28,719 nucleotides of DNA from Chrysophaeum taylorii. Taxonomy: Eukaryota > Sar > Pelagophyceae > Pelagomonadales > Pelagomonadaceae. The position numbers and the translations under genes were made by a program. Where the stretch lies: the NCBI GenBank assembly GCA_029834535.1, contig JAQMWT010000571.1, positions 1-28,719 of the forward strand, read 5' to 3'. Below the pieces are notes generated by a model. The model searched no databases and was not told the origin of the DNA. It saw nothing but the letters and a program-made list of their open reading frames with translations. Every line of letters starts with the position of its first letter. Position 1 is the first letter of the stretch. Shown one piece after another: positions 1-19,582 of this stretch.

Positions 1-460
1 AGGATTAATGGTCATGAAATTGGTACATAGGATTTCTTCGTCACTGCAGCCGCATGTTGGAAGGTAGGGTCCAACATAAGGATTTAATATCGGCCCAACG
101 AGGGGCGAAAGGTGCTTGTACAGAGTGCTGTACGTACCGGCGGCAGGCATTGCTGAGCATGTCACAGCAAAGGTCATGGCGTAGGGACAGAGACAGAGGA
201 AAGATTCCCTGTTGTTTGGTGTGGTTGTTTAGCACGAATCAACTCCGGTCGAGTGGGGTAGCGTAATTCCCGTTGCGGGGTCGAGTCAAAAATTTGGCAT
301 ACCCTCGGACGGTTGGCAATGGAGCAAGCATTGAGTGGATTTTAGAGCCGAGTTTGCGGTCACTTCCACGAAGAATACCCTATATAGCGACTATGAGATA
401 GGTGATGATCTTCCAGAGCAAAAATGAGAATCCTTGTAATCGAAAGAGTTGTCGGTGGCT
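1..460. other. No gene recognised; downstream flank of retroelement
   Basis: I see only short unconvincing frames here. It lies downstream of the minus-strand methyltransferase-like ORF and could hold the element's 3' untranslated region or LTR. I found no matching direct repeat in the 5583-6411 region on the other side, so LTR status is unsupported. Confidence 0.4.
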
Positions 461-1825
461 TTAGGTAAGGCAGCCAGGCATCACGAGAACGCATCTGGAC
501 ACGAGGTTTAGTATGGCGGTGTCATAGGTGGTAGCGGAGCCAACTTGGGGAAGGGCTTGGACTATCCACAAGTAACCCATAGACGGCTCCCAGATATATG
601 GACCTGTCCGGCGCGGGGATATCGGAAGCGGTGAACGTATACGTGCTCCCAAAGGCGTAGATGGAAGTGGATTTTTGGTGGTGGCGTTCTCTATGGTGAG
701 GTTGCCGTCGGAATGGTGGCCACCAGTTAAGAAGTAGGAGTTGTGTGATGTTGATGAGGTTGTAAGTAATAACCTGTGTGACGGTTGGTTAGTTTCGAAA
801 ACGGTTATGTAATAGGACACAGGAGGGTGAGTTAGTGTGTAGCTGGCAAACAAGTTATAGAGGATTGTAAAAACCTTGACGTGTATAGGATGGGTTGCAT
901 GGGGTAATGGTTCCATAGAGGAGCGTTTAAAGCACAACTGATGAAAAGTACACTTGGATTGAACAGAGTGAGTACGTTGCTCGTGAGCCTGTTGTGAGTG
1001 AAGGCGAAGCAGTAACATATTGAGGGATTCAAGGTCAGCCATAGTAAGCTGAACAGAACCTGTGCGAGAGTAAGGTGCAAACGTTTTAGGAACGGGAATA
1101 TATGGAGGATCGGGGAACACCCGGATCCAGTCTTTGGATACATGTTTAGGTAGCCAAAGGCGCTTGGGAATAGCTTGTAGATCATCCACGATCTTTAGGA
1201 AGGGGCGTGGATGGAGGATGGGCCACGATAATAGCTTAATTGGTCCAGTAGAATATCTGCGTGCGATGCATATCCATCTTTCTCTAGATTGGTAGTCGCC
1301 ACAGAGGTAGGTTGGGAACCTGTCAACAACATCGACACAGTAATCAAGTGTAGTATGGATAAGGTTGGCCACTGTGATGTGGTCTTGATGACAGTATTTA
1401 TGCGGAGGCGTCATCTCAGCCAGTAGTACCAAGGGCTGGAGTAGCTTGATGACAGACAACATGCTGTCGAAAAGAGAGTCGTCCAGCAGGCTGTGTAAGT
1501 CTTCCGTCTTTTGCTGTTTTAGTAAATTCCTGTTTGTGCAGGGAGGAGTGATCTCAATTATATCACAATAGAATGTGCGCCTTTCCTCTGGTGAGATTAG
1601 GTGAAGATGGTTAATAAAGGCGGGGAGAGATTCAAATAATAGTACAGTAGGAAAACGGTGGCGTAACATACGAACAAGCGTATCATCAGACTCAACAACA
1701 ACTTTTACATTGATATTTAAGCCTAAGTCATTAGTGGCTTGAGACAGGAACGCCGGAGTTGACAAACCAGAACAAAGTAACATGACAGAGGGTTTGCGGA
1801 GATTGGACTCTTGTGAGAGAAACAC
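461..1825 (-). CDS. C5-cytosine DNA methyltransferase-like protein of a retroelement
   Basis: The 454-codon frame matches the motif order of C5-cytosine DNA methyltransferases. Motif I is like LLCSGLSTPAFL (residues 16-27), followed by an acidic ESDD at 45-48 in the motif II position. Motif IV is ITPPCTNRN with the PPC catalytic loop at 94-96 (Cys96). Motif VI is LLAEMTP with Glu137 in the ENV position, and motif VIII is QSRERWICIA at 179-188. A C-terminal QVGSATTYDTA near 427-437 resembles the motif X helix (GNAVxPxVA). The key cysteine, glutamate and QxRxR residues are kept, so activity is possible. The family transfers methyl from S-adenosylmethionine to cytosine C5. The motif VI-VIII spacing is compact. 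The first codon of this frame is GTG; the first ATG is codon 15, inside motif I, and the frame is open back to a TGA at 1841-1843, so the true N-terminus is uncertain. It could also be a decayed host gene rather than an element gene. Confidence 0.72.
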   Translation of the reverse strand: MFLSQESNLRKPSVMLLCSGLSTPAFLSQATNDLGLNINVKVVVESDDTLVRMLRHRFPTVLLFESLPAFINHLHLISPEERRTFYCDIIEITPPCTNRNLLKQQKTEDLHSLLDDSLFDSMLSVIKLLQPLVLLAEMTPPHKYCHQDHITVANLIHTTLDYCVDVVDRFPTYLCGDYQSRERWICIARRYSTGPIKLLSWPILHPRPFLKIVDDLQAIPKRLWLPKHVSKDWIRVFPDPPYIPVPKTFAPYSRTGSVQLTMADLESLNMLLLRLHSQQAHEQRTHSVQSKCTFHQLCFKRSSMEPLPHATHPIHVKVFTILYNLFASYTLTHPPVSYYITVFETNQPSHRLLLTTSSTSHNSYFLTGGHHSDGNLTIENATTKNPLPSTPLGARIRSPLPISPRRTGPYIWEPSMGYLWIVQALPQVGSATTYDTAILNLVSRCVLVMPGCLT

Positions 1826-1843
1826 TGGGCGTGAGAGTAGTCA

Positions 1844-2068: not shown

Positions 2069-2105
2069 TTAGATGCTACATTGTGTATGGGTACAAGTGC
2101 AGGCC

Positions 2106-2412
2106 AGTAAGTTCACCTAGTCCCAATCTCTAACCCCAGTAAGTTCACCTGGTCCCAGTAAGTTTCGTATAAGTTCACCTGGTCAGTAAGTTCACCTAGC
2201 TCACACCAACTCCTTTGAGCTCGTCGCTCTCGCCTCCGCCAATCTAAGCTGCTTTGATCCGCACGCGCCGCCAACCTTTGAGTTTACTCTAAAAACCCTT
2301 TACTCTAAAAACCCCAGTATGTTCACCTGGTCCCAGTTTCACCTGGTCACTCAGTTCACCTAGTCCCAATCTCAAACCCCAGTAAGTTCACGTGGTCCCA
2401 GTAAGTTCACTT
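2106..2412. repeat. Degenerate GTTCACCT minisatellite
   Basis: Nine copies or near-copies of a unit built on AGTAAGTTCACCTGGTCCC occur here. GTTCACCT cores start near 2111, 2143, 2173, 2190, 2321 and 2354, with variants near 2336, 2386 and 2405. The array is split in two by about 120 bp of unrelated sequence and abuts the 3' end of the helicase remnant. Confidence 0.8.
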
Positions 2413-2442
2413 ATAGTGCGCGTGTAGACGCCGGGAGGGGGC

Positions 2443-3010
2443 TTATCGGTACTGCGCAGCACGTGTGGGGTAGGGTGGAGTCGTCGACCCAGATGAGTAT
2501 ATCCTCGGGGATGCCGATCGACAGAGAGCCACGTAGAGCTGGACGTGGCAGAAGACGGGCTTGGGAAAGAGGACGCCGACCTCGCGGGGCGTCTGGCCCT
2601 GGCTCTTGTTGATCGTTTGGCGTAGGCGGGCCTTAAGCGATACAGGTTGGAGGAGCCTCGGTGACAACGACACGATCGATCATGTATCTGGTACCGTTGC
2701 AGTGGCCGTGCGACGGGTCGAGGTTGCGAAGACATTAAGCTCGCGATCAAAGTCAGCATGCCGTTGGTTGTCAGGGAGTTGAAAACTCTACTGTAAAGAG
2801 CGAGGCGTCGTCTTCCGACCTAGCCTAGTCAGCCGAAAAGAACTCCGACGCCTCGTCTCCGGGAAAAAAAGGCCGCGGTCACGCGCGCGTTGTCAGCATC
2901 GACAACATCGTTTCGACGGGGCGTGAGAATGGCGCGCTGAAAGAGCCGCCGCGGGTCGTGGAAATAGTCTGCGAGGTCGCCGTAGACGGCTTGGAGGATC
3001 ACTGTCTGGC
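2443..3010 (-). pseudogene. PIF1/Helitron-type helicase remnant
   Basis: Three short minus-strand frames together give the C-terminal half of a PIF1-family helicase as found in Helitrons. In order they are a VILQAVYGDLADYF segment (about 3006-2965), RAILTPRRNDVVD, SADxARSEDDA, LRNLDPSHGHCNGTRYM (about 2737-2685), and finally TINKSQGQT followed by GVLFPKPVF and GQLYVALCR. These match the conserved ILTPRN, LLRNL-GLCNGTR, TINKSQGQT and GQLYVALSR blocks. At least three frameshifts and stops (an A-run near 2866-2872, a TAG near 2826, a TAA near 2631) break it. The Walker A part, Rep domain and Helitron ends are not visible. It is probably an old insertion within the retroelement. Confidence 0.8.
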
Positions 3011-3056
3011 TCTCGCGCCTACCTGATCCTTACTCTCGCGCCTACCTGATCCTTAC
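3011..3056. repeat. 23-bp perfect tandem duplication
   Basis: The unit beginning TCTCGCGCCTACC is present twice back to back at 3011-3033 and 3034-3056. It marks the junction between the helicase remnant and the protease ORF. Confidence 0.95.
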
Positions 3057-3057
3057 C

Positions 3058-3981
3058 CTAAATCGAGGGACAAACAAACAGACGAACAAACAAACAGACA
3101 AACATCTGTCGATTAGTAGTTAGGATACGTACATCTTTGTCTATGCGGCTCGTGACAGCGCTGAGCTTTGGCTCAGCTCGATCATTGAACACAGTGGTCA
3201 GGTTCGTCTGGTTCCACTCTAGCATGCTCAGGATAGCGAGATGTCGGTCATGCACTGGCTGAAGACATAAAGCGAAGTCGATCTTAACATAGCCAACATG
3301 TGGATGATCTGGTAGGGGAATAACGATGTTGCGTGTTAACATCATGTGTGATGCCCGTTGTTGTCCTGTTGCCGTCTGAATAACAATCGGCGCGTATTTG
3401 GAGTCCAATGGAATTATATGATTGGGTATTGCGAAATCGTAGGTGGACATCAATGAGATGGTAGCACAAGAGTCAAAATATAGAAAAGAGCAATGTGGAG
3501 GGACACTGTTTACCTTCATGTAGTTGGTGAGGAAGGCGTTTTCCGAATGTGGGCAAGTAGTGGAGAGGCTGGCTGTAAAGAAGTTCTTCAGCAATAACAG
3601 ACTCGTTGGAATAATGATCGGTTGAACAGGTGGTGATGGTTCGTCAGCCTCATCAGCCATGCCGTGCTTTTCGTCAAATGACGATAGCGAAGTATGATCG
3701 GCATCCCTTTTGGTTTCGGCTTGTGATGGTAGGTTGAGGGCAGATTGGACCTGTGAAGATAGCGAGGACAATAATGCTGGTGGTAAAGCCGAGATGGCGG
3801 AAGCGGTAAAGAGGTTAGACACCGTATTGAAAGGATTACCCTGTGTGTTTGTAGTAGGAGGCGTTGTTGTTGGGGTGGGACCAGTAACGACAGTATGGTG
3901 TTGTGGCTCCACGTAGTTTAACGACTTTTCGGTCGAGGATAGATGAACGTCTACATCATAAATGATGTCTTCTGCAAACAT
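3058..3981 (-). CDS. Retropepsin-like aspartic protease ORF
   Basis: The 307-codon frame has a Thr/Pro-rich N-terminal half and a retropepsin-like half. The active-site strand is FLYFDSCATISLM (Asp170), the flap region contains TATGQQ (about 203-208), and the second psi-loop position is HLAILSMLEWN (about 248-258), equivalent to the usual IIG/ILG block. In retropepsins this enzyme cleaves the Gag-Pol polyprotein as a dimer. The residue after Asp-Ser is Cys rather than the nearly invariant Gly, which may impair activity. It starts about 11 bases after the gag stop in another frame, suggesting frameshift or reinitiation expression. The C-terminus runs into a microsatellite, so it is truncated and no RT follows. 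Confidence 0.68.
   Translation of the reverse strand: MFAEDIIYDVDVHLSSTEKSLNYVEPQHHTVVTGPTPTTTPPTTNTQGNPFNTVSNLFTASAISALPPALLSSLSSQVQSALNLPSQAETKRDADHTSLSSFDEKHGMADEADEPSPPVQPIIIPTSLLLLKNFFTASLSTTCPHSENAFLTNYMKVNSVPPHCSFLYFDSCATISLMSTYDFAIPNHIIPLDSKYAPIVIQTATGQQRASHMMLTRNIVIPLPDHPHVGYVKIDFALCLQPVHDRHLAILSMLEWNQTNLTTVFNDRAEPKLSAVTSRIDKDVRILTTNRQMFVCLFVRLFVCPSI
3070..3104. repeat. CAAA/CAGA simple repeat at end of protease ORF
   Basis: A short array of CAAACAAACAGA-like units gives the protease frame an artificial low-complexity tail rich in Phe, Val, Cys and Leu. The natural C-terminus or pol continuation has therefore been replaced by microsatellite sequence. Confidence 0.85.
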
Positions 3982-3992
3982 GAGCTGTTCGT

Positions 3993-5582
3993 TTAGACGA
4001 AGTAAACTACTGTTGTCCTCAGTATATGTCGTTGACAGAATGTCAGCTGATTGTAATAGAGTCTAAAATAACTTGTTGATATTATGTTGTATAGGGTGTT
4101 TAAGGTGTGGTTTGTTCGATCTAATAATTTCATGTTAGACCGAGAGGACCTGTCAAAAGTGCGGGGGTAAATTGGACGGTCATGGGACTGTCCGGCAGTT
4201 TTCTTGGTGACGTAAGAATCACCAGGACGATAATACGATAAATCGCTGCGAGAGAAAGGCTGGCGAGCATCATTAGAGTTACGCAAGCGTCTAGCATTAA
4301 ACGTGGGAGATGTACCAGGTTGGGACGAAGTGATGAAGGCGAGTGTGTTAGCAGTTTGAGTCAGACTTTTGTCTGATGAGTCCGAAGTGTGTGTAAGTAG
4401 TAACTTTGGCTTTGGGCGTTCTAAACGTCTTTTGTTCGACCCATTTGATACGACATTGAAAAAAAGGTCTAATGCGTATTCTAAAATGTAGCTAGGGTTG
4501 GTAGGGTGACACAATCGTTCAGCTTCTGGCACAGGTCGAGATGAAGATCGGGTTTCGTACATATAACACCAATCTACCCAACCACGATCGTAACGGCTGT
4601 TGCTGGTATTATCGGCATAATGCCGATGTATCTCTTCATAGATTTTTCTGCAAAGAGTGCCAAAGTCGAATTGAAGGTCAGTCTCTTCCTGGTTAAGTTG
4701 GTAAGAGATTTGCCTAAATGCTAGGACAGATTCGATAAATACATGGACATACCAGTTAGGATTATAAACAACAGAGTTAAATTGCTGTTTCAAATAAGAC
4801 ACATCAGTAGTCGTAACAGACTCGTAGTGACTAAAGGCGATGAGCATAATAGCTCGAGCCTTGTTGGGTAAATAGCTTTTGTTGTATATCTCATTGATGG
4901 CGGGCCAGGCCGCAAGTGCCGGTTTTCCAACACTTTCAAGATTGAAGTAAGTATGCAAGAATGTAGCGTACGTGTTCTGGTAAGTGTGCCAGTCAGCTGC
5001 AGTTAACGAAAACATGGTAACCGGGGCACGAACACGGGTGTCGAAAGCTAGTGCCTTCGGGTGCGCGCGATTTAAGATTCGTTCCTCTTCTAAGAAACGA
5101 GCATTGATTTCAGGACGTAATGCCTTGACTTCATAGTCGTAACAGACAGTAGTTAGCTGAGCTACTTCTGCATCAGGTAAGTGGGGGAAAGCTTCGTTGG
5201 TGAAATGCCATTCCTGATACTCAGGGGGCAATTCATCAACAGCTAAACGGAGATCAGCAGCCCTATCGGTCTTCCATTCCAGGAAAACGCGATCGAGAAT
5301 TTGATTCCGGAGGATTTCGTAGTCCTTGCATGACCGAGTATATGCTTCGTACGAGTCGTACTCGAGGAAAGCATCGGCATGACTGGACCGTAGTAATTGC
5401 TTGATGTGCTTGATTTGCAAGGATACCTTGCGGTTCTGAAGCTGAAACCGATTTCCTTCGTTAAGAAACTCAACTACAGGAGCTTCGAGCTTCAATATAT
5501 CCGCACCTGTGATCGCCTTGGGTGCGGCTCGTGCTGCGTGTTCTGCCATAGCAGTTGACGGGGAACCTGTGGGTTCAGTCAC
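3993..5582 (-). CDS. Gag-like protein of the retroelement
   Basis: This uninterrupted 529-codon frame lies directly upstream of the retropepsin ORF on the same strand. It has a mostly helical, charged central part with no membrane segment. The C-terminal region after about residue 390 is Ser/Arg/Lys rich, consistent with nucleic-acid binding, but I see no CCHC zinc knuckle. The last roughly 40 residues are Tyr/Thr/Leu rich and may be read-through into non-native sequence. I assign it as Gag from length, position before the protease and composition, not from a recognised motif. The ATG at 5582 gives a plausible start with Met-Thr-Glu-Pro. Capsid-type structural role is inferred. Confidence 0.6.
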   Translation of the reverse strand: MTEPTGSPSTAMAEHAARAAPKAITGADILKLEAPVVEFLNEGNRFQLQNRKVSLQIKHIKQLLRSSHADAFLEYDSYEAYTRSCKDYEILRNQILDRVFLEWKTDRAADLRLAVDELPPEYQEWHFTNEAFPHLPDAEVAQLTTVCYDYEVKALRPEINARFLEEERILNRAHPKALAFDTRVRAPVTMFSLTAADWHTYQNTYATFLHTYFNLESVGKPALAAWPAINEIYNKSYLPNKARAIMLIAFSHYESVTTTDVSYLKQQFNSVVYNPNWYVHVFIESVLAFRQISYQLNQEETDLQFDFGTLCRKIYEEIHRHYADNTSNSRYDRGWVDWCYMYETRSSSRPVPEAERLCHPTNPSYILEYALDLFFNVVSNGSNKRRLERPKPKLLLTHTSDSSDKSLTQTANTLAFITSSQPGTSPTFNARRLRNSNDARQPFSRSDLSYYRPGDSYVTKKTAGQSHDRPIYPRTFDRSSRSNMKLLDRTNHTLNTLYNIISTSYFRLYYNQLTFCQRHILRTTVVYFV

Positions 5583-6411
5583 GCAGTTGACACTGTCTAG
5601 ACATTCTAAGGGGTCTGTCTATCGGTGTCTATGTACACTCATCGTTTTCGATGGAAGGTGTCTATTTGACGACTGTGCAAGCTGTGAGTCCAGAGTAGTG
5701 TCGCTAAGCGTAGTCACTCAGGCAGCTGGTTAGTTTTGGTGCTCTCAAGGAGCTTGTTAAGTGCATTGCCATGGAATGTACGAGTGGACGTACCCAAAAT
5801 ATTCCATAACATGTGTGCAAGAGTACAGGTTAGCCAATTACACACACATCAACATTGACATGACAATACGATGCTATGAACAGGTGCACACAAGGTTACA
5901 CGATCACGAGTGCAAAAAATATTATATACAGCCCAATGGTAATGGCGTTGTATTTACAAGTGTGTTTTCGTGGCGAGGCTAGGTCGGCGCGGTAACGACC
6001 CAATACCCATAGGTTACGTGCACGTTTTAACACATGGTTTCTCAGGGACCCGCCTGGGCCCATAACCTGCAGAGCATTTAGCAAGCAGTGGTAAGTCACC
6101 TGGGAAACCATCCCGTCTCATCGTGAACGTCTGGAAGTAGTTAATTCGGGGAATGAAAAGGTATGTTCCCTATATCCTCAGAACACGACAGGCGGCATCT
6201 AGAACTACACGAGAAAGGTAAAGTGTACAGTGCTACATACCTCGGGACGCGCTAGACCATGATGATGAGCGTAGGCACAAATCGGAGGACTATCTATTTG
6301 ATTGTGTAGAAAGGAAGAAGAAGGGTAAGGAAGAGATCACGTTCTCAACGGACGGATAAGGGTAAGAGGCAGCAGATTTCTCTGCAAAAACAACACACAA
6401 ATTTGGGGGGT
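5583..6411. other. No gene recognised; upstream flank of retroelement
   Basis: About 830 bp with only short frames. It should hold the gag leader and any 5' LTR and primer-binding site, but I could not find an LTR partner near 1-460 or a convincing tRNA-complementary PBS. Confidence 0.4.
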
Positions 6412-7145
6412 TTAGGTTTCGTACCGCCACGACAGCTCACCATGTACACTCTTCGTGCTAACCCCGAGTTGAGCACCGGCCTCGGTCTTGAAGCCGTCGA
6501 ACCTAAGGATTCGAGCGAAGTTGCCGGTGGCGAGCCACATCTTGTTGGTGTTCTGTACAGTCTCTTCAAAAAGCCGTGGCGCCCACGTGCGCCGAAAGGC
6601 CTCGGACTTGGGCAAGTGCTTGACGTAGGCCGCGTAAAGCGCCTTGATCATGTCGATGAAGAAAAAGGTGTTGGCGATGTTGAAAGGCAGAGCGCAACCA
6701 ACCATGAATTTGGTGATCTTCTCGTTGATAACATTGGCACGGCGCGTATCACACCTGTCAGTGACTTCGGTGACTCTAGCTTGCTTCGACACGACTTGCG
6801 ACGGAGCCGTCCCAGTCTCCGGCAACAACGAAGGGCGGACGATGTCGCTGTCGAGGCGCGAAGGTCGTGGACTGCGGCGGGCCGCTTATTCGTGGCCCAT
6901 ACACACCCCGAGATATTCTTAGCTGACGACTTTCTCGCGAGCGTGCACTTAACATCGGGTGTGTGATTGCAATCCAGGACGATGTGCTCAGCCCATTGAG
7001 CTGGCTTGAACTTTTTGCCCGTGCGTGCGTGCATGCAGCCGCGTGCCGCACATCTCCATTCGAACGTGCCGTCGCCCTTAGGCGTTGTGATCACGTAGTC
7101 GCTCACCGAACTCCTGGGCCGCCCCCCCTTGAACATGGTCACCAT
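6412..7145 (-). pseudogene. hAT-type transposase, BED finger plus N-terminal part (copy A)
   Basis: From the ATG at 7145 the product reads VTMFKGGRPRSSVSDYV and then a BED-like zinc finger with CAARGC and AEHIVLDCNH (C-x4-C ... H-x4-C-x-H). After a frameshift near 6828 it continues with INEKITKFMVGCALPFN and the FFFIDMIKALYAAYVKHLP segment typical of the hAT region after the finger. The frame ends at a TAA (6412-6414) after about 245 codons, far short of the 600-700 residues of a full hAT, so the DDE core and C-terminal dimerisation region are absent. The plus-strand copy at 14957-16091 confirms the start, shows where the frame broke and ends at the same point. hAT transposases cut and paste DNA and leave 8-bp target duplications. 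Confidence 0.75.
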
Positions 7146-7656
7146 AACGGTCACCAGCGTGTGCAACTTCAACAGGAGGCAGCGAGCGTGTGGCACAGAA
7201 GAGAAACGGAAGAGAAAACGCTCCCTGACCACAAACGGACGTCCTGCAACGTTTTCTGTTTCTGAGCGTTTCGGTGTCAACCGGACGCGAGAAGATGTTT
7301 AATCCGGTAAAATCCAAGTTAAATCCGGTTTTAAACCGGTTTAAAACATGCGCTAAAGTACTAAAACTAAACTAAAACTAAACCCTGACCTTTGATACCG
7401 GTATTTTAGGTTCGGTAACCCTGAGGTTCCGCAGGATAGAGCCGAAAAAACAAAATGGGCCAAACAAAATAGAGCCGTTTGTAGTCCGTTGCTTTTCCGA
7501 AAACGCCTGGAAAAGCGTGACACGTGTGCGATTCCGCAAGCCAATCCGCCGCAACCTTCACAGGGCGATGCGCGCCGTGCGGCGTCCTGCGGTGGCAAGG
7601 CCGTGCCACCACCGACCCGCCCCGACCATCCGCGGATCTTTGTTACCCCAATTTAA
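7146..7656. other. No gene recognised; contains an 18-bp palindrome
   Basis: The stretch holds the 5' flank of hAT copy A. It includes repeated AATCCGGT words, the perfect palindrome TTTTAAACCGGTTTAAAA at 7329-7346 and a short ACTAAA-rich run at 7357-7383. I see no coding sequence. Confidence 0.5.
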
Positions 7657-7985: not shown

Positions 7986-10900
7986 TCACCAAACTCGAGC
8001 CTCCATCGCGTCGTCGGTGAGGAAGGTATCGGTATCGCCGGGCTCGTCATACTCGGCGAAGACGCCTTCGTTCCCAACGATTCCTTTGCAGTGACCTTCT
8101 CGAATGAGATCGTACACCTTGCCGTAGGAACCCTTTGTCGTCTCCTGGATGATTTTGCGGCGGAGATGTGGGCCGAGCTTACGGCGGAGCGTCGCAAGCA
8201 ACTCGCGCCCCGTCAGTCCGGCTGGCGGCTCGAAGTTGTGCTCGTATTGGCGCAGAGCAGCAACGAGAGCGGCGTGGTCCATCTGTGAGAGGGGGATCTT
8301 GTTGCCGGCTTCGTCGGTCTCAAAGAGCGTTTTGGTCGGGAGCTCGTTCTCGAGGCTCATGAGCTTCGCGATAGATTCAATGACGCTCTCCTTCTTCTTC
8401 TGGTTCGTGGCGGCCTCGTCCAGGAGCAAGCACTTCGGGATCGTGAAACTCCTCCTACCCAGGCCCGAGATGACGAGCCGCGAGTAATCGGCCACCATGT
8501 CGCCCTTTTTATTCTTCTTCTGCACTGGCGTCGCCGTCGCTTTCATTGCCTGGTCGACGACACCACGGACATGGCGAGCGAGTCTGCCGATCAACTCGTC
8601 AGATCCGAAGATGTCCGGGGTGTGGTACGTCGCGTTGAGCTGGGCGTCGCGGTTGATGATGAGGTAGAGAAGCTCGACGCCGCGCTCGATGCTCTCCATG
8701 CAAGCATGCTGCATGTTGATGCTCTCAACCGTGGAAATGCTGTGCGTGGTCGCGCTCTCGGCGAGTTTGCCGTGGATGTACTCGATGATCGCGCCCACGA
8801 GCTTCGGCAGGTTCTCGTTGAGATTGCGGCGGCGATCCGCGCTGAGATTGTCGACGTCGTGGATGAACTGGAGGAGCTCACCCGAATAGCCCAGCGCGTT
8901 GTAGCGCATCGCCACGCGCTGGAACTGCGCCAGGACGTCGCGCGCGGTGACCGGGTCCATCTTGAGGCCGGGGATGTAGTAGACCGCGCACGGCAAGTCG
9001 TTCTCAAGGAAGTCTTAAGGAGGCGGATGGGGCGCTTATCGAGGTTTGCCTGAAGGACCGGGAGGTAGGCCAGCCGAATAGCAAGCCACGCCATGTGGAG
9101 CACGAGGGTCGCATGGTAGTAGTCGACGAAGTGGAACTGTCGCGAGATCTTCCCCCAGGGGACCTCCTCGTCTTCGCCCAAGTTGCGGTAGATGCGCATG
9201 TACTCGTCGAAGAAAAGCGCCCGGACCCAGGACCACTCGTTATCGCTGTCGTGGCCCGACCCGATCACGAACTTCTTGAGGACGGCCCCAGCGGCGTGCC
9301 AGAGTTCCGGGACCGGGAAGACGTAGTTGAAGGTATCGTACCCGGCCAAGCGGCTCATGAGAATGAGCGACTTGATCCGAGGGATTGTCTCGTGGTCGCC
9401 GGCAACGAAATGGACACGTTTCATCCTCCAGACCGGCTCGTCGCCCTGCTCGTTCGCATTGAGGTCGCCGTCCACTTTGGCGTCGCAGAAAATCTTATGC
9501 GTGTACGCTAGGGCCCGGAAATTGTCGAACTTGTCGCTTGACTTGGCGTCGATCGCGCCGGCGCCGAGGTGCTTTCAACCCCCGAGACCGAACTTCTGGT
9601 CGGTCTTCCGGCGGCGCTGGTCCTCGGGTTCTTTTCCTCCTCCCTATAGAACTGCTCACGGACGAGCTCCATGTTGGCCAGGACCTGGTTCTTCGCCAGT
9701 TGGTCTTTCCGTGTGAGCGCCGACCGAGGCCCGGTCCTCTCCGCCGCCGCCGCGGCTTGGGGCTCGAGGTAACGCTCGTCCAGGTTGTGGGTGATGCTGC
9801 CGATGGACAAGCCGACGAGCCTTTCGAGCATCTGGATGAAAGGCGTCGTGTCCAGGTTCATGATTCCCCAGAGGCGGGCCTTGTTAAGGACGCCCGTCGA
9901 CGCGACCTCACCCGCGCCGAGCTTCCAGCAGTCGGTCTGAGGCGGATACTGCAAGGTGGCGATTACGAAGTCGATGACGGGGGCTACCCGTGCGCGGTGT
10001 TCACTGCCGTGCGACGCGGAACCCGCGCCCTGGCGTTGCTGCTGATAGTTGTCGAGTTCGACAAATTTGGGTTCCGTAGCGTTGAGCCGAAGGAACGCGG
10101 AGACGCGAGAGAAGAAGGTCGCGAGCTGCCTTTTGCGCTGGCGATCAAGCGATTACTGCGACAAGATGATGCCAACGGAGGCGTTGAGCAGATTCGAGAC
10201 GGTCCGAGTGATACCGCGCGCAACGAGCAACGGCGAGAGGGCCCTCTGCGTTGCGTTGGAAAGAGAACATGTCCATATCGATCTGGAGCTGGACTACCGC
10301 GCCTGTTGGCACGTTGCCATCCATCTGCGTCAGCTTGTTTCGCACAAAGCCCCAAAGTCGAGGGTGATTTTGCAAGACTCGGCGGGTCCTATGGTAGCGC
10401 TCGCCAACATCGAGCTTGTCATACCACTCGTTAGTCAGATAGGAGCGGTCGAGGCGCCGGTCGTGAAGCTCGAGCCCGACTTGTAGGAGCCAGACATTCC
10501 AGCCGTAGGCCGAGGCGAGAGCAGCCTCTCGTGGATCCGGGGCCCTGCGCAGAAAATCGTGCACTGACAGCCGCTGACTGTCCTCGTTGCGCAAAGCCAC
10601 GACGCCCACATTGTCGTCGCTCAGAGTAGCGTCGAGAATTGCGAGCCTAGCGTAAGAGGTGGCCAATTCCGCTGCTACTTGGCTCCGAGCATGGTGCTCC
10701 CCCTGGAATGCTTGCAAGTGCACCGCGGACTGCTGCTGCTCGGCGGTGACTTGCGCTTCCAGCCTAAAAGACCGCAGCTGCTCGGCGGCATAGGCCTCGG
10801 GCTTCTGCGCGAGGGCGACGGCGTGTTGAGCTCGCTCGAGGTCGAGCTCCTGCGTCAGCCTCTTGATCTGATTGTTTTGGTCAAGAATCCATTGACTATG

Positions 10901-12141: not shown

Positions 12142-12499
12142 CCTTACCCTGATCGCTGACCGCGTGGTTGCGATGGAGGACGGTGCCTCATGAATCCTGA
12201 GCCTTGCGAGGGCATCCGCCCTCCCGGCGTAGGTTGGCACCTATTCGCCTCCCGGGCGGGCCGGTTGGCAGCCGGAACGTTCGCAGTGGGACGGGGTATG
12301 GCCGGGGGGCGCAGACGGAAGGTCATCGACGAGTTGGTTGTCAGTCACATCGCGGTCTCCTCGTCGCATGGCGACAAGCTTGATGATCACTCTCCGCCGA
12401 CCCACCTTTCGGCGCCCCTCGTCTACAGGCCCGTGATTCCGGACTGGCTCCTGTCGGTCCGGCCTGGCTCCCATGCTCGGGAGAGGTCTGAAGTAAGTT
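12142..12499 (+). mobile_element. SINE-like retroposon, copy 1, with 12-bp TSD
   Basis: This 358-bp insertion is flanked by perfect direct repeats AGTGGGATATAG (12130-12141 and 12500-12511). It begins CCTTACCCTGATCG and carries an A-box-like TGACCGCGTGG (12157-12167) and, about 75 bp on, a B-box-like GGTTGGCACC (12232-12241). That spacing suits a Leu/Ser-type tRNA-derived head. It ends in AAGTAAGTT, a remnant of the GTTA-repeat tail seen in copy 2. There are no inverted termini. Together these features fit a tRNA-derived SINE mobilised by a LINE. The B box departs from the consensus GGTTCGANNCC, so the tRNA origin is inference. Confidence 0.65.
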
Positions 12500-12511
12500 A
12501 GTGGGATATAG
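12500..12511. repeat. Target-site duplication, right copy
   Basis: Identical to 12130-12141. Confidence 0.85.
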
Positions 12512-14956: not shown

Positions 14957-16091
14957 ATGGTGACCATGTCCAGGGGGGGACGGCCCAGGAGTTCGGTGAG
15001 CGACTACGTGATCACAACGCCTAACAGCGACGGCACGTTCGAATGGAGATGTGCGGCACGCGGCTGCATGCACGCACGCGGCTGCATGCACGCACGCACT
15101 TGCAAACAGTTTAAGCCAGCTCAATGGGTTGAGCGCATCGTCCTGGATTGCAATCACACACCCGATGGCGCTAAGTGCACGCTCGCGAGTAAGTCGTCTG
15201 CTAAGAATATCTCGGGGTCTGTATGGGCCACGAATAAGCGGCCCGCCGCTGTCCACGACCTTCGCGCCTCGACAGCGACATCGTCCGCGCCTTCGTTGTT
15301 ACCGGAGACTGGGACGGCTCCGTCGCAAGTCGTGTCGAAGCAAGCTAACTAACTAGCTAACTAACTTCAGACCTCTCCCGAGCATGGGAGCCAGGCCGGA
15401 CCGACAGGTGCCAGTCCGGAATCACGGGCCTGTAGACGAGGAGCGCCGAAAGGTCGGTCGGCGGAGAGTGACCACCATCAAGCTTGTCGCCATGCGACGA
15501 GGAGACCGCGATGTGACTGACAACCAACTCGTCGATAACCTTCCGTCTTCGCCCCCCGGCCATACCCCGTCCCACTGCGAACGTTCCGGCTGCCAACCGG
15601 CCCGCCCGGGAGGCAAATAGGTGCCAACCTACGCCGGGAGGGCGGATGCCCTCGCAAGGCTCAGGATTCATGAGGCACCGTCCTCCATCGCAACCGTAGT
15701 CGGCGATCAGGGTAAGGGCAAGCTAGAGTCACGGAAGTCACGGAAGGGTGTGATACGCGCCGTACCAAGCTTATCAACGAGAAGATCACCAAAATCATGG
15801 TTGGTTGCGCTCTGCCTGCCAGCATCGTCAACACCCTTTTCTTCGTCGATATGATAAAGGCGCTCAACGCGGCCTACGTCAAGCACTTGCCCAAGTCCGA
15901 GGCCTTTCGGCGCACGTGGGCGCCACAGCCTTTTCGAAGAGACCGTACATAACATCAACACGATGTGGTTCGCCACCGGCAACTTCGCTCGAACCATTGG
16001 GTTCGACGGCTTCAAGACCGAGACCGGCGCTCAACTCGGGGTTAGCACGAAGAGTGTACATGGTGAGCTGACGTCGCGGTTCGAAACCTAA
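14957..16091 (+). pseudogene. hAT-type transposase, BED finger plus N-terminal part (copy B), split by a SINE
   Basis: It starts MVTMSRGGRPRSSVSDYV like copy A and carries the same CAARGC ... LDCNH finger, with an in-frame 18-bp tandem duplication encoding GCMHAR twice (about 15062-15097). It continues to SQVVSKQA, where the 370-bp SINE-like element is inserted, then resumes as RVTEVTEGCDTRR and LINEKITKIMVGCALP. A single-base insertion near 15930 shifts the frame. The TAA at 16089-16091 coincides with the end of copy A. Without the SINE and the shift it would encode about 260 residues, so it lacks the catalytic core. The shared abrupt end, at CATGGTGAGCT, resembles a splice donor, which may mean the real protein continued in a lost exon. 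Confidence 0.75.
15348..15717 (-). mobile_element. SINE-like retroposon, copy 2, with 8-bp TSD
   Basis: This 370-bp copy is the reverse complement of 12142-12499 with high similarity. It sits between direct repeats GCAAGCTA (15340-15347 and 15718-15725). Copy A of the hAT gene has this word once (near 6780), proving the insertion. On the minus strand it starts CCTTACCCTGATCGCC and ends in a tail of about five TTAG/GTTA units, the microsatellite-type 3' end common in SINEs. The A-box area is two bases shorter than in copy 1. Confidence 0.75.
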
Positions 16092-17340: not shown

Positions 17341-18633
17341 GCCCTCACAGATTGAACGCGGTGAGCGAAATCTGGATCAAACTAAACAGGAAGCGTCTTA
17401 CCATCGACAAGAACATAGAGAGTGTTCTGGACAGAGTCGTACGGTGGAAGAGTAGCTGAAAGAGTAACTTGATGAGATGGCGGTGAGGAGGAGGCTGAGT
17501 GAACACCGTGGGCGTTTTTGAACTTGTGAAATAAATTGCGTGGTAGGAGCTTCGAAAAATGATCAGCGACCTGGTAGTGAGTAGGACACCAGAGAGGACG
17601 AATGATGGAATTGGCTTGGTAGTCACGAATGCGAAATTCTCGTAAATTGATATGACGAGAAGGAGCACTGACTTTAGGATGATTAGCGACATGTAATGCG
17701 CTAGCGTTATCAATAAGCAGGGGAATAGCGTGAGCTTGATCACACGAAAACAGATAAGGGTGAGAGGAGAAAGGCTTGTAGAACCAGTGACATTCATCGG
17801 CGGCTGCGCTGGCGGCGATGAGTTCAGCTTCCATGGTGCTTTTGGAAGTAAGAGTTAGTCGTTTGCTAGACCAAAATACGAGATTGCTAAAGACGAAGAT
17901 ACATGCACCAGAATTGGATCGCAGGCGAGGGTCAGAACGGTCAGCAAAACTTGCATCAGTAAAACAAATAATGGGCGAACGAAGGTGATGCAGTTCATGG
18001 GTGAACGAAGACGATGCAGTTCAGGATAGCGGTTGATCAGAAGCTGAATAAAGGGGGTAATAGAGGGGCTGTCGGATGAATAGTCGAGTGAATCATTCGG
18101 AGTACCCTTTAAGTAGCGAAGTAAAACATATAAGTGCAGAAGGTGGGTCTGGTCAGGGTTGTGCATGCCCTTGCAGCATTTGTTGCACAGAGTGGTGATA
18201 TCAGGCCGACATGTGACAGACAAGTAAATACTAGTGCCACAGTAGTGAGGAAAATTTTGGCGTAATACGTCTAAGGTAGGAGCCAAGTCTGAGAGAAGTT
18301 TAGCAGAAGGTTTTTGAATGAGGATGTCCGAATAGGGGACGTCCAGACTATGTAGGTTGAGCTTATGCTCAGCAAGCATCTTGGTGATCTTCGCTGCTAC
18401 ACTCATAGTGAGATGACCAGCGGAGACATTGTAGTGGACATCGATACCAAGAAAGGATCTGATGTTGTCATGCCACGTACCTTTGCCATATTCCTTCTCC
18501 AGAGCAGTGCGAAGAGATGTAATTTTGGCAGTGTTGGTACCAGTGATCAATAGGTCATCGACTGAAACGGATAGTAACCCATTTGTTGATAGATCGATCC
18601 CAATTGATATAGAGGCAAGTGTCGACTTGTGAG

Positions 18634-18662
18634 CGTTCGAACTCATGTTGTCGAAGAAACGA
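18634..18662. repeat. 29-bp direct repeat at RT, native copy
   Basis: Identical to 18730-18758. On the minus strand it encodes FLRQHEFER in the native RT position. Confidence 0.93.
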
Positions 18663-18729
18663 GTCGAGTTTGATGTTCCACAACAAAGCTGACTGTTTGA
18701 GGCCATAGAGAGCCTTGACGAGTCGGAGA

Positions 18730-18758
18730 CGTTCGAACTCATGTTGTCGAAGAAACGA
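18730..18758. repeat. 29-bp direct repeat at the gag-RT junction
   Basis: The copy sits exactly where gag coding sequence jumps to RT, so a piece of RT normally found 96 bp downstream has been duplicated at the deletion breakpoint. Confidence 0.93.
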
Positions 18759-18762
18759 TTCT

Positions 18763-19582
18763 TCCCATCCGAGTGCATCGATTTCGTCGTATGCTGGGTG
18801 CTTGACGGAGTCGCTACAGGCATGCAGGAAACGGCGAAAGAGGGGGTGCACGGTCTCGCGGAGGTATACGATGAAGTCGGCTTCTTTTCCTTGGAGGTGA
18901 GGTTGGGTGATCGGATACAACTTGCCTTTTGTCATATCGGTCGGGTCCTTGTCTTTATCTTTAAGTTCTTGGACCTTTGGCTCGTAGACGTTTTCCAGGA
19001 AGTGTTTGCCGAACTTGCGGTAGACACCCTTGTGGTAGACGTAACGGCCTTGGAAATCTCGCGTGTTCCCGGCGGCGGTAGAGTGGTGGTCGGGGTCCTT
19101 GTCGTATTCGTCGATACAATGGCTTAGGAGAGCGTCAGCGAGATCATTAGATCCGCGCAAGACGGATTCCCACGTGTAGAAGCCCTGTAGAAAGTAATGA
19201 GTTATGCCTGTTTCAGGCATCAGATGTTCGAAACAACTGCATGACGCGAAACGAAAGCATTTGGGGTGTGACTTGCGCGTTGTCCATTGACTTGAGGACG
19301 GCTCTAGGTGGGTCACTAATGGTGTTAACTTTTGTCTTGGGATCTTGTTGAGCCGGAGTGGGAGGCGGAGCCGCAGCAGCGACGGCAGGTGGTGGCAGCA
19401 TGGCGTTGAGCTGCGCTTGGAGAGCTTGGAAGCGATCATCGTTGTCTTGTTTTTGCGCTAGCATCTCCCTTTGATGCTTTGCCTCTATGTGCCTCTATGC
19501 GAGCTTCTTGGTCTTTCATGGCTTGAGCATGTTCGGTCTTCTGAGTGGCCAACTCTTTTTGAAGTTCTTGGTTGGTTGGCAT
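18763..19582 (-). pseudogene. Copia Gag, frameshifted
   Basis: The ATG at 19582 opens MPTNQELQKELATQK, a coiled-coil start, and the product continues through frameshifts near 19470 and 19225. Recognisable stretches are QALQAQLNAMLPPP, GFYTWESVLRGSNDL and DFQGRYVYHKGVYRKFG, ending in YDEIDALGW next to the deletion junction. Gag would form the particle. No zinc knuckle is present, so the C-terminal part was removed with the deletion. Confidence 0.6.

Follow-up and report, generated by a model that had tools for sequence, protein, structure and literature searches.

A putative C5-cytosine methyltransferase in the pol frame of a multicopy Ty1/Copia retrotransposon of an alga

The window analyzed here is 28,719 nucleotides long and constitutes all of contig C571, one of the 697 contigs that make up a 70.8-Mb genome. 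It carries on its minus strand an open reading frame, P0001, whose motifs and relatives support its identification as a divergent C5-cytosine methyltransferase (MT), of which it covers the front part. The enzyme is almost certainly encoded inside a Copia retrotransposon (referred to below as family A), and its core is under purifying selection. The full reading, in which a Copia-borne MT is made by stop codon readthrough and methylates the DNA of the element, has a probability of about 0.55. The relevant features of the window are as follows.

6068..6386, minus strand: 5' LTR of 319 bp (TGCAGAG...CTCTGCA), sharing 92-94% identity with the LTR pairs of copies C42 and C127.
6053..6067, minus strand: putative primer-binding site GGTTATGGGCCCAGG, directly after the LTR and the same in all four other copies read.
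3993..5582, minus strand: gag-like ORF of 529 aa, with a nucleotide match to C42 and C127 and no Pfam match.
3058..3981, minus strand: ORF with a retropepsin-like DSC motif (end of gag and protease region), no Pfam match.
2092..3124, no strand assigned: inserted non-coding repeat of 1033 bp between protease and MT, missing between the matching blocks of C42 and C127.
1838..1843, minus strand: in-frame UGA CUA at the boundary of the gag-protease and MT-pol frames, from a comparison of the junction in 34 copies.
464..1825, minus strand: MT ORF P0001, 454 codons with the stop at 461-463, from the ORF list and the genome copies.
1226..1786, minus strand: MT motifs I-VIII, from the motif alignment (as are the next three).
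1538-1540, minus strand: Cys96 of motif IV.
1415-1417, minus strand: Glu137 of motif VI.
1277-1291, minus strand: QSRER of motif VIII.
1..463, minus strand: frame-broken remainder of the MT with remnants of motifs IX-X, running to the contig end, from comparison with other copies.

The sequence-only reading of this DNA had described a 454-codon ORF lying downstream of gag-like and retropepsin ORFs on the same strand. The ORF is present where it was placed, but its coding strand is the minus strand (with GTG as the start codon), the plus strand being full of stops throughout 461-1825, and the ORFs at 3993..5582 and 3058..3981 are indeed found upstream on that same strand. The protease reading of 3058..3981 was made by eye from motif and position, and the 3' end of this ORF enters the insertion; the 3' end of the gag-like ORF is in a different frame from that of the intact copies. 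The primer site GGTTATGGGCCCAGG is one that we take to be of the half-tRNA-iMet type.

The window copy is damaged: the 1-kb insertion splits the protease from the MT, and indels close to the end of the contig disrupt the reading frame ahead of the true motif X. Compared with C42, the first ∼880 nt of the MT are ungapped, and the gaps in the segments that follow towards the contig end number 3, 1, 4, 4, 6, and 10 columns per 150 nt, which fits either decay or falling consensus quality at the end of the contig. Residues ∼393-425 of P0001 are out of frame relative to the other copies, and its frame stops at an indel where the other copies continue towards the integrase; since the end of the ORF was made by an indel, 454 codons is not the natural length of the MT, which is ∼590 aa in other copies. 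The "motif X-like end" previously seen in the ORF was a misreading, as motif X is missing from the 454-codon ORF. The stretch with motifs IX-X (RYPTRPELIRANN...SNALPAGTY) starts ∼75 codons past the ORF end in other copies and is found, frame-broken, within positions 1-463 of the window. The 1033-bp repeat itself begins with CCAGTAAGTTCACC and is closed on one side by a TTTG-rich tail; copies of it, 80-96% identical, occur in or near other MT-bearing elements among the fetched loci.

The motifs that had been claimed for the ORF, namely, I (CSGLSTPAF), IV (TPPC), VI (AEM), and VIII (QSRER), are all found in P0001 and are common to relatives from other sources that share 38-41% identity with it. 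The motif order of C5-MTs, i.e., I, IV (PC), VI (Glu), VIII (QxRxR), and X, is likewise observed, with X being read in the other copies. Nevertheless, P0001 alone matched no family of either Pfam or NCBIfam and had no significant match in the PDB. A profile search of the PDB gave C5-MTs only at E values of 0.42 and 1.2, with an unrelated protein ranked ahead of them. Judged on this one sequence by the profile match (PF00145) that the sequence-only reading had called for, the identification would be rejected; the relatives rescue it. A search of ∼5.8 billion proteins, with 4569 candidates scored, yielded two of these, P0006 from a marine eukaryote transcriptome collection (41% identity to P0001, 2.7e-72) and P0007 from an ENA contig (39% identity, 9.3e-49), and P0008 came from a profile search in which 8000 candidates were scored; no relatives were confirmed in viral contigs. 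Against PF00145, whose cut-off is 22 bits, P0007 scored above it (23.0), and P0006 (20.2) and P0008 (17.7) scored below; at E<=10 this family was matched by 5 of the 19 aligned members, three of which were P0006-P0008.

Further evidence comes from a second MT-bearing family in the same genome, family B, which matches PF00145 at 7.3e-8. An hhalign comparison of families A and B gave 2.6e-7 over 203 columns covering motifs I-VIII, the family A profile scored family B at 1.1e-9 in a 203-sequence set in which the best of 200 shuffles reached 0.083, and P0007 matched family B at 1.8e-13 (six-sequence set). Taken with the PF00145 scores of P0007 and family B, these profile matches bear out the claim of a C5-methyltransferase domain. 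The two predicted structures of the MT had mean pLDDT values of 39.4 and 41.6. When the first of these low-confidence models was used in a fold search, the result was generic Rossmann folds, with C5-MTs absent among the 50 matches listed.

The MT frame was found at 93 scored loci (96 stretches, including the window), the other 92 being 78-97% identical to it. These loci were scored from 1400 first-look candidates, so that 93 is a minimum that the real copy number of family A may exceed. Fetching 30 of the 93 loci with flanks of 1.5 kb, and ten with more surrounding sequence, gave 34 different copies, in 14 of which the whole stretch of ∼620 aa tested is free of stops and frame breaks. The search for gag, protease, RT, and the MT ORF in one unit, proposed along with the original claim, was successful: the long copies are ∼11.8-kb Copia elements in which the first LTR is followed by the primer site, gag, protease, UGA, MT, integrase, RT, RNase H, an extra ORF region, and the second LTR. 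In copy C42, a single 1691-aa frame contains the MT, the integrase and SH3 matches, and a Copia RT (RVT_2, 7.7e-42, residues 1431-1651); residues 784-1007, located before RVT_2, match rve (0.0076) and SH3_retrovirus (0.00056), both under the Pfam cut-off. The integrase thus precedes the RT in pol, which is the Copia order, and a Copia-type RNase H follows the RT (as judged by eye). The gag-protease frame upstream of the MT reaches up to 960 aa, and its position and DSC motif fit a Copia element, with no Pfam match for either gag or protease. In copy C325, the extra region between RNase H and the 3' LTR consists of frames of 427 and 266 aa split by a stop, with no Pfam match over the cut-off in the 281 and 266 aa scanned; the second frame of this region (L046:3-1646) has weak coiled-coil-like matches.

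LTR pairs of 311-326 bp flank the MT in four of six regions, at identities of 92.7, 90.8, 97.1, and 96.8%, and no pair was present inside the 16 kb fetched for the remaining two. Where the LTR ends can be read clearly, they are TG...CA. Among the four LTR-paired copies inspected, C127 has an exact 5-bp target duplication and C42 has one matching at 4 of 5 bases, with no clear duplication in either C311 or C325. At least 27 of the 93 MT copies have an RVT_2 match downstream on the same strand, 3.7-6.3 kb away from start to start (4.18-4.28 kb in 18 of them), a lower bound because only the best 150 RVT_2 places were used; among the same 150 places, not one lies within 9 kb of any of the 93 on the upstream side or on the other strand. 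For comparison, among the best 150 places of RVT_1, same-strand matches within 9 kb accompany 2 of the 93 copies, one on either side. The attachment to a retroelement proposed earlier is therefore confirmed in a more definite form, the MT sitting in the pol frame between protease and integrase and being repeated as a unit, and by its domains the carrier is assigned to the Ty1/Copia superfamily. A DIRS-type carrier was considered as well and was rejected, as the genome has no Phage_integrase match.

These counts also bear on the explanation that P0001 arose by chance as an ORF or is an unrelated host gene that happens to neighbor a retroelement. The missing Pfam match of P0001 alone and the 1-kb insertion between protease and MT in the window would suit such an origin, but the presence of the frame at 93 loci, its fusion to a Copia RT in C42, and the fixed distance to RVT_2 leave it a negligible probability, and it was rejected.

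The gag-protease frame shares its register with the MT-pol frame, and a single stop lies between the two. This stop is an in-frame UGA in 30 of the 34 copies (including L022, where it is displaced by two codons) and is followed by CUA in 25 of the 34; the remaining four copies have a junction that is rearranged or frameshifted. With a four-fold-site rate of 0.057, the chance of zero substitutions at the UGA codon in 30 copies is ∼0.005 if the copies, which are non-independent, are treated as independent. No stable RNA fold was detected after the UGA in nine sequences (z from -0.01 to 1.33). UGA CUA is given as a high-readthrough consensus in human cells in the accessible part of PMC4359377, and from the conserved junction we infer that the UGA is probably read through in the alga as well.

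Mean pairwise dN/dS in the MT was 0.127 for motifs I-VIII (34 copies), 0.316 for the target-recognition-like region (34 copies), 0.264 for motifs IX-X (31 copies), and 0.245 for the whole MT (34 copies), values that apply to copies picked as the best matches to P0001, with a bias towards intact copies, and in which frame-broken stretches raise dN. Elsewhere in the element, subject to the same two effects, it was 0.135 for gag (9 copies), 0.118 for the protease region (28 copies), 0.206 for the integrase (23 copies), 0.159 for RT (7 copies), and 0.35-0.50 for the linkers. The MT core, being close in dN/dS to gag and the protease, is constrained about as tightly as they are. Pairwise distances agree between protease and MT (r 0.82, 0/2000 permutations) and only weakly between MT and integrase (r 0.34, 119/2000) and between protease and integrase (r 0.26, 239/2000); the weak agreement with the integrase leaves room for exchange between copies or noise.

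The putative catalytic Cys and Glu and both motif-VIII Arg residues are retained in all 34 copies and also in P0006 and P0007, at ∼40% identity; the motif-VIII Gln is present in 33 of the 34, and the Asn and Pro of motif X are present in 31 and 30 of 31 copies, respectively. Together with the dN/dS values, this supports the earlier suggestion of past selection for activity. It is improbable that catalysis has been lost and that the MT serves as a structural or nucleic-acid-binding piece of the pol polyprotein: motif VI reads AEM instead of ENV, motif I has an uncommon form, and the family is not recognized directly by Pfam, all of which would agree with such a loss, but the invariance of the Cys, Glu, and both Arg residues in the 34 copies and their presence in the distant relatives argue for an active enzyme. 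As the key residues are conserved in the examined copies, the element may have the means to place epigenetic marks on its own DNA or on that of the host.

For an active enzyme, the position at the head of the pol frame, right behind a UGA in a readthrough context, suggests the following sequence of events. The MT would be produced together with integrase and RT, solely in the minority readthrough products, would then be freed from the polyprotein by the protease, and would be packaged alongside integrase and RT in the replication particle, where it could methylate cytosines of the double-stranded cDNA or, later, of the new insertion. A DNMT5-like host enzyme could keep these marks, resulting in a quiet and less damaging insertion. 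Self-methylation is what we infer from this arrangement, and for its central part, action of the MT on the element's own DNA, the odds appear to be even. Speaking against it, no excess of CpG transitions was seen among 28 copies, and the CpG shortage is only mild (0.91-0.93 in the element and 0.92-1.14 in the flanks).

The missing methylation-decay mark in the element, along with the number of MT-bearing loci (hundreds, from three families in one genome, with at least 93 in A, 32 in B, and 89 in C), would also agree with an MT that acts mainly in trans on host chromatin, such as target sites or silencing loci, and alters the host epigenome. This is the less likely course, because a position in pol behind the UGA couples the dose and localization of the enzyme to those of integrase and RT. 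Methylation of RNA, either that of the element or a tRNA (for example, the primer), in the manner of the Dnmt2-type C5-MTs, is less likely still; it too would leave no CpG decay, and the primer site looks to us tRNA-iMet-like, but the MT shows no detectable closeness to the Dnmt2-like protein of the host. That the C5-MT superfamily includes RNA enzymes is noted in the part of PMC12344493 available. Methylation of the element's own DNA, as set out above, is retained as the preferred reading.

The host is apparently a photosynthetic alga, provided that contig C697, with its two Photo_RC (psbA/psbD-type) matches, belongs to the same organism; no phycobilisome match was found in the genome. The host genes found with PF00145 are a DNMT5-like gene (L054, contig C621), in which PF00145 and SNF2 matches occur in one 2086-aa frame, and a Dnmt2-like gene (L053, contig C634), both names being readings from motifs and architecture; partial PF00145 matches are present on C260 and C57, and further host DNMTs may be hidden by introns. 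Descent of the family A MT from either host gene was considered and set aside, as no closeness to the DNMT5-like, Dnmt2-like, or family C proteins is detectable. The CSG of motif I, common to the family A MT and the DNMT5-like protein, is suggestive only.

Family B (L051, P0009; contig C96) joins a protease-like part, an MT, and an integrase in a single frame and is represented by at least 44 matching stretches at 32 scored loci of 1439 candidates; none of the best 150 RVT_2 places lies near any of the 32 loci. The MT region of family B found nothing at E<=1 among 7999 scored candidates of the protein database. Families A and B also align over motifs IX-X and the integrase (BLASTP 2e-19), and the same order with homology on both sides of the MT suggests an old capture, made before the two families split. 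Family C (L052, contig C235; PF00145 1.2e-5) accounts for at least 90 stretches at 89 scored loci of 1290 candidates. RVT_1 lies 1.8-2.0 kb downstream of the MT (start to start, same strand) in at least 10 of the 53 copies of C1 and, among its best 150 places, near none of the 36 copies of C2; the carrier of family C differs from that of family A.

The recognizable cellular DNA methylase of the alga is DNMT5-like, and DNMT5 is a maintenance-type methylase in other organisms. It is conceivable, if unlikely, that the retrotransposon families (Copia A, Copia-like B, and C) supply de novo methylation that DNMT5 then maintains; in that event, the first version of the host methylome would be written by parasites of the genome. 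In a DNMT5-bearing alga, the element allows a standing question to be tested, namely, where new methylation originates when the recognizable DNA methylase of the cell is of the maintenance type.

Several other features of the window and the genome were recorded. A second, broken Copia pol is located at 17855-19439 on the minus strand (RVT_2, 2.7e-8), and an ORF at 8591-9475, also on the minus strand, has a weak match to DUF6589 (2.3e-5, under the cut-off). One ORF (CEGIRPPGVGWHLFASRAGRL...) occurs twice, on opposite strands, at 12190-12501 and 15357-15671, and the same sequence breaks the pol frame of copy L047. Another ORF, which by eye resembles a zinc finger (SVSDYVITTP...FEWRCAARGCMHAR), is also found twice on opposite strands, at 6648-7280 and 14957-15352. 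Contig C696, which holds 8 of the best 150 RVT_1 places, looks like an organelle genome rich in RTs of the group II intron type.

With respect to known systems, the Tca2 element of Candida albicans is a Copia member in which we know of no MT. According to the available portion of PMC2194720, it has an in-frame UGA between gag and pol, as family A does, and a potential 3' pseudoknot, in contrast to the lack of a stable fold after the UGA in family A. LINE, DIRS, and Gypsy carriers of DNMT have already been published, as described in the accessible sections of PMC5890265, from which the following details are taken. The closest parallel, KnitGypsy-Dnmt3 of Klebsormidium nitens, is likewise an algal LTR retrotransposon with many copies and a C5-MT in the Pol frame, with Ka/Ks below 0.2, but it combines Gypsy domains with a DIRS-like repeat arrangement and a Dnmt3-clade enzyme, whereas family A is a Copia element (RVT_2, integrase before RT) whose MT is placed behind a UGA, after the protease and ahead of the integrase. 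Symbiodinium likewise has retrotransposon-borne C5-MTs under purifying selection, SymbioDIRS-Dnmt3 and SymbioLINE-Dnmt, carried by DIRS and LINE elements rather than by Copia, and its Copia elements are stated there to lack a DNMT domain. Two SymbioDIRS enzymes performed de novo CG methylation in yeast; the SymbioLINE and KnitGypsy enzymes gave inconclusive negatives there, so that activity of a retrotransposon MT is not to be assumed (PMC5890265).

The ParB-methyltransferase of the Sola1 transposons of Ectocarpus, as presented in the part of PMC12477816 covered, is another DNA methylase of an algal mobile element, but Sola1 is a DNA transposon and its enzyme is predicted to form N4-methylcytosine or N6-methyladenine, not 5mC. 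A Copia C5-MT is described in the accessible text of neither PMC9998398 nor PMC12477816, nor does a Copia element with a C5-MT appear among the titles and abstract openings that searches of the open-licence PMC literature on the topic listed. One sentence in the portion of PMC12344493 available names "LTR Copia" as DNMT3 carriers, citing PMC5890265; the name may stand there in error for Gypsy or refer to a separate case. Family A would add Copia to the retrotransposon superfamilies with a captured DNA cytosine methylase, and its protease-UGA-MT-integrase layout would tie that enzyme to the replication machinery of the element.
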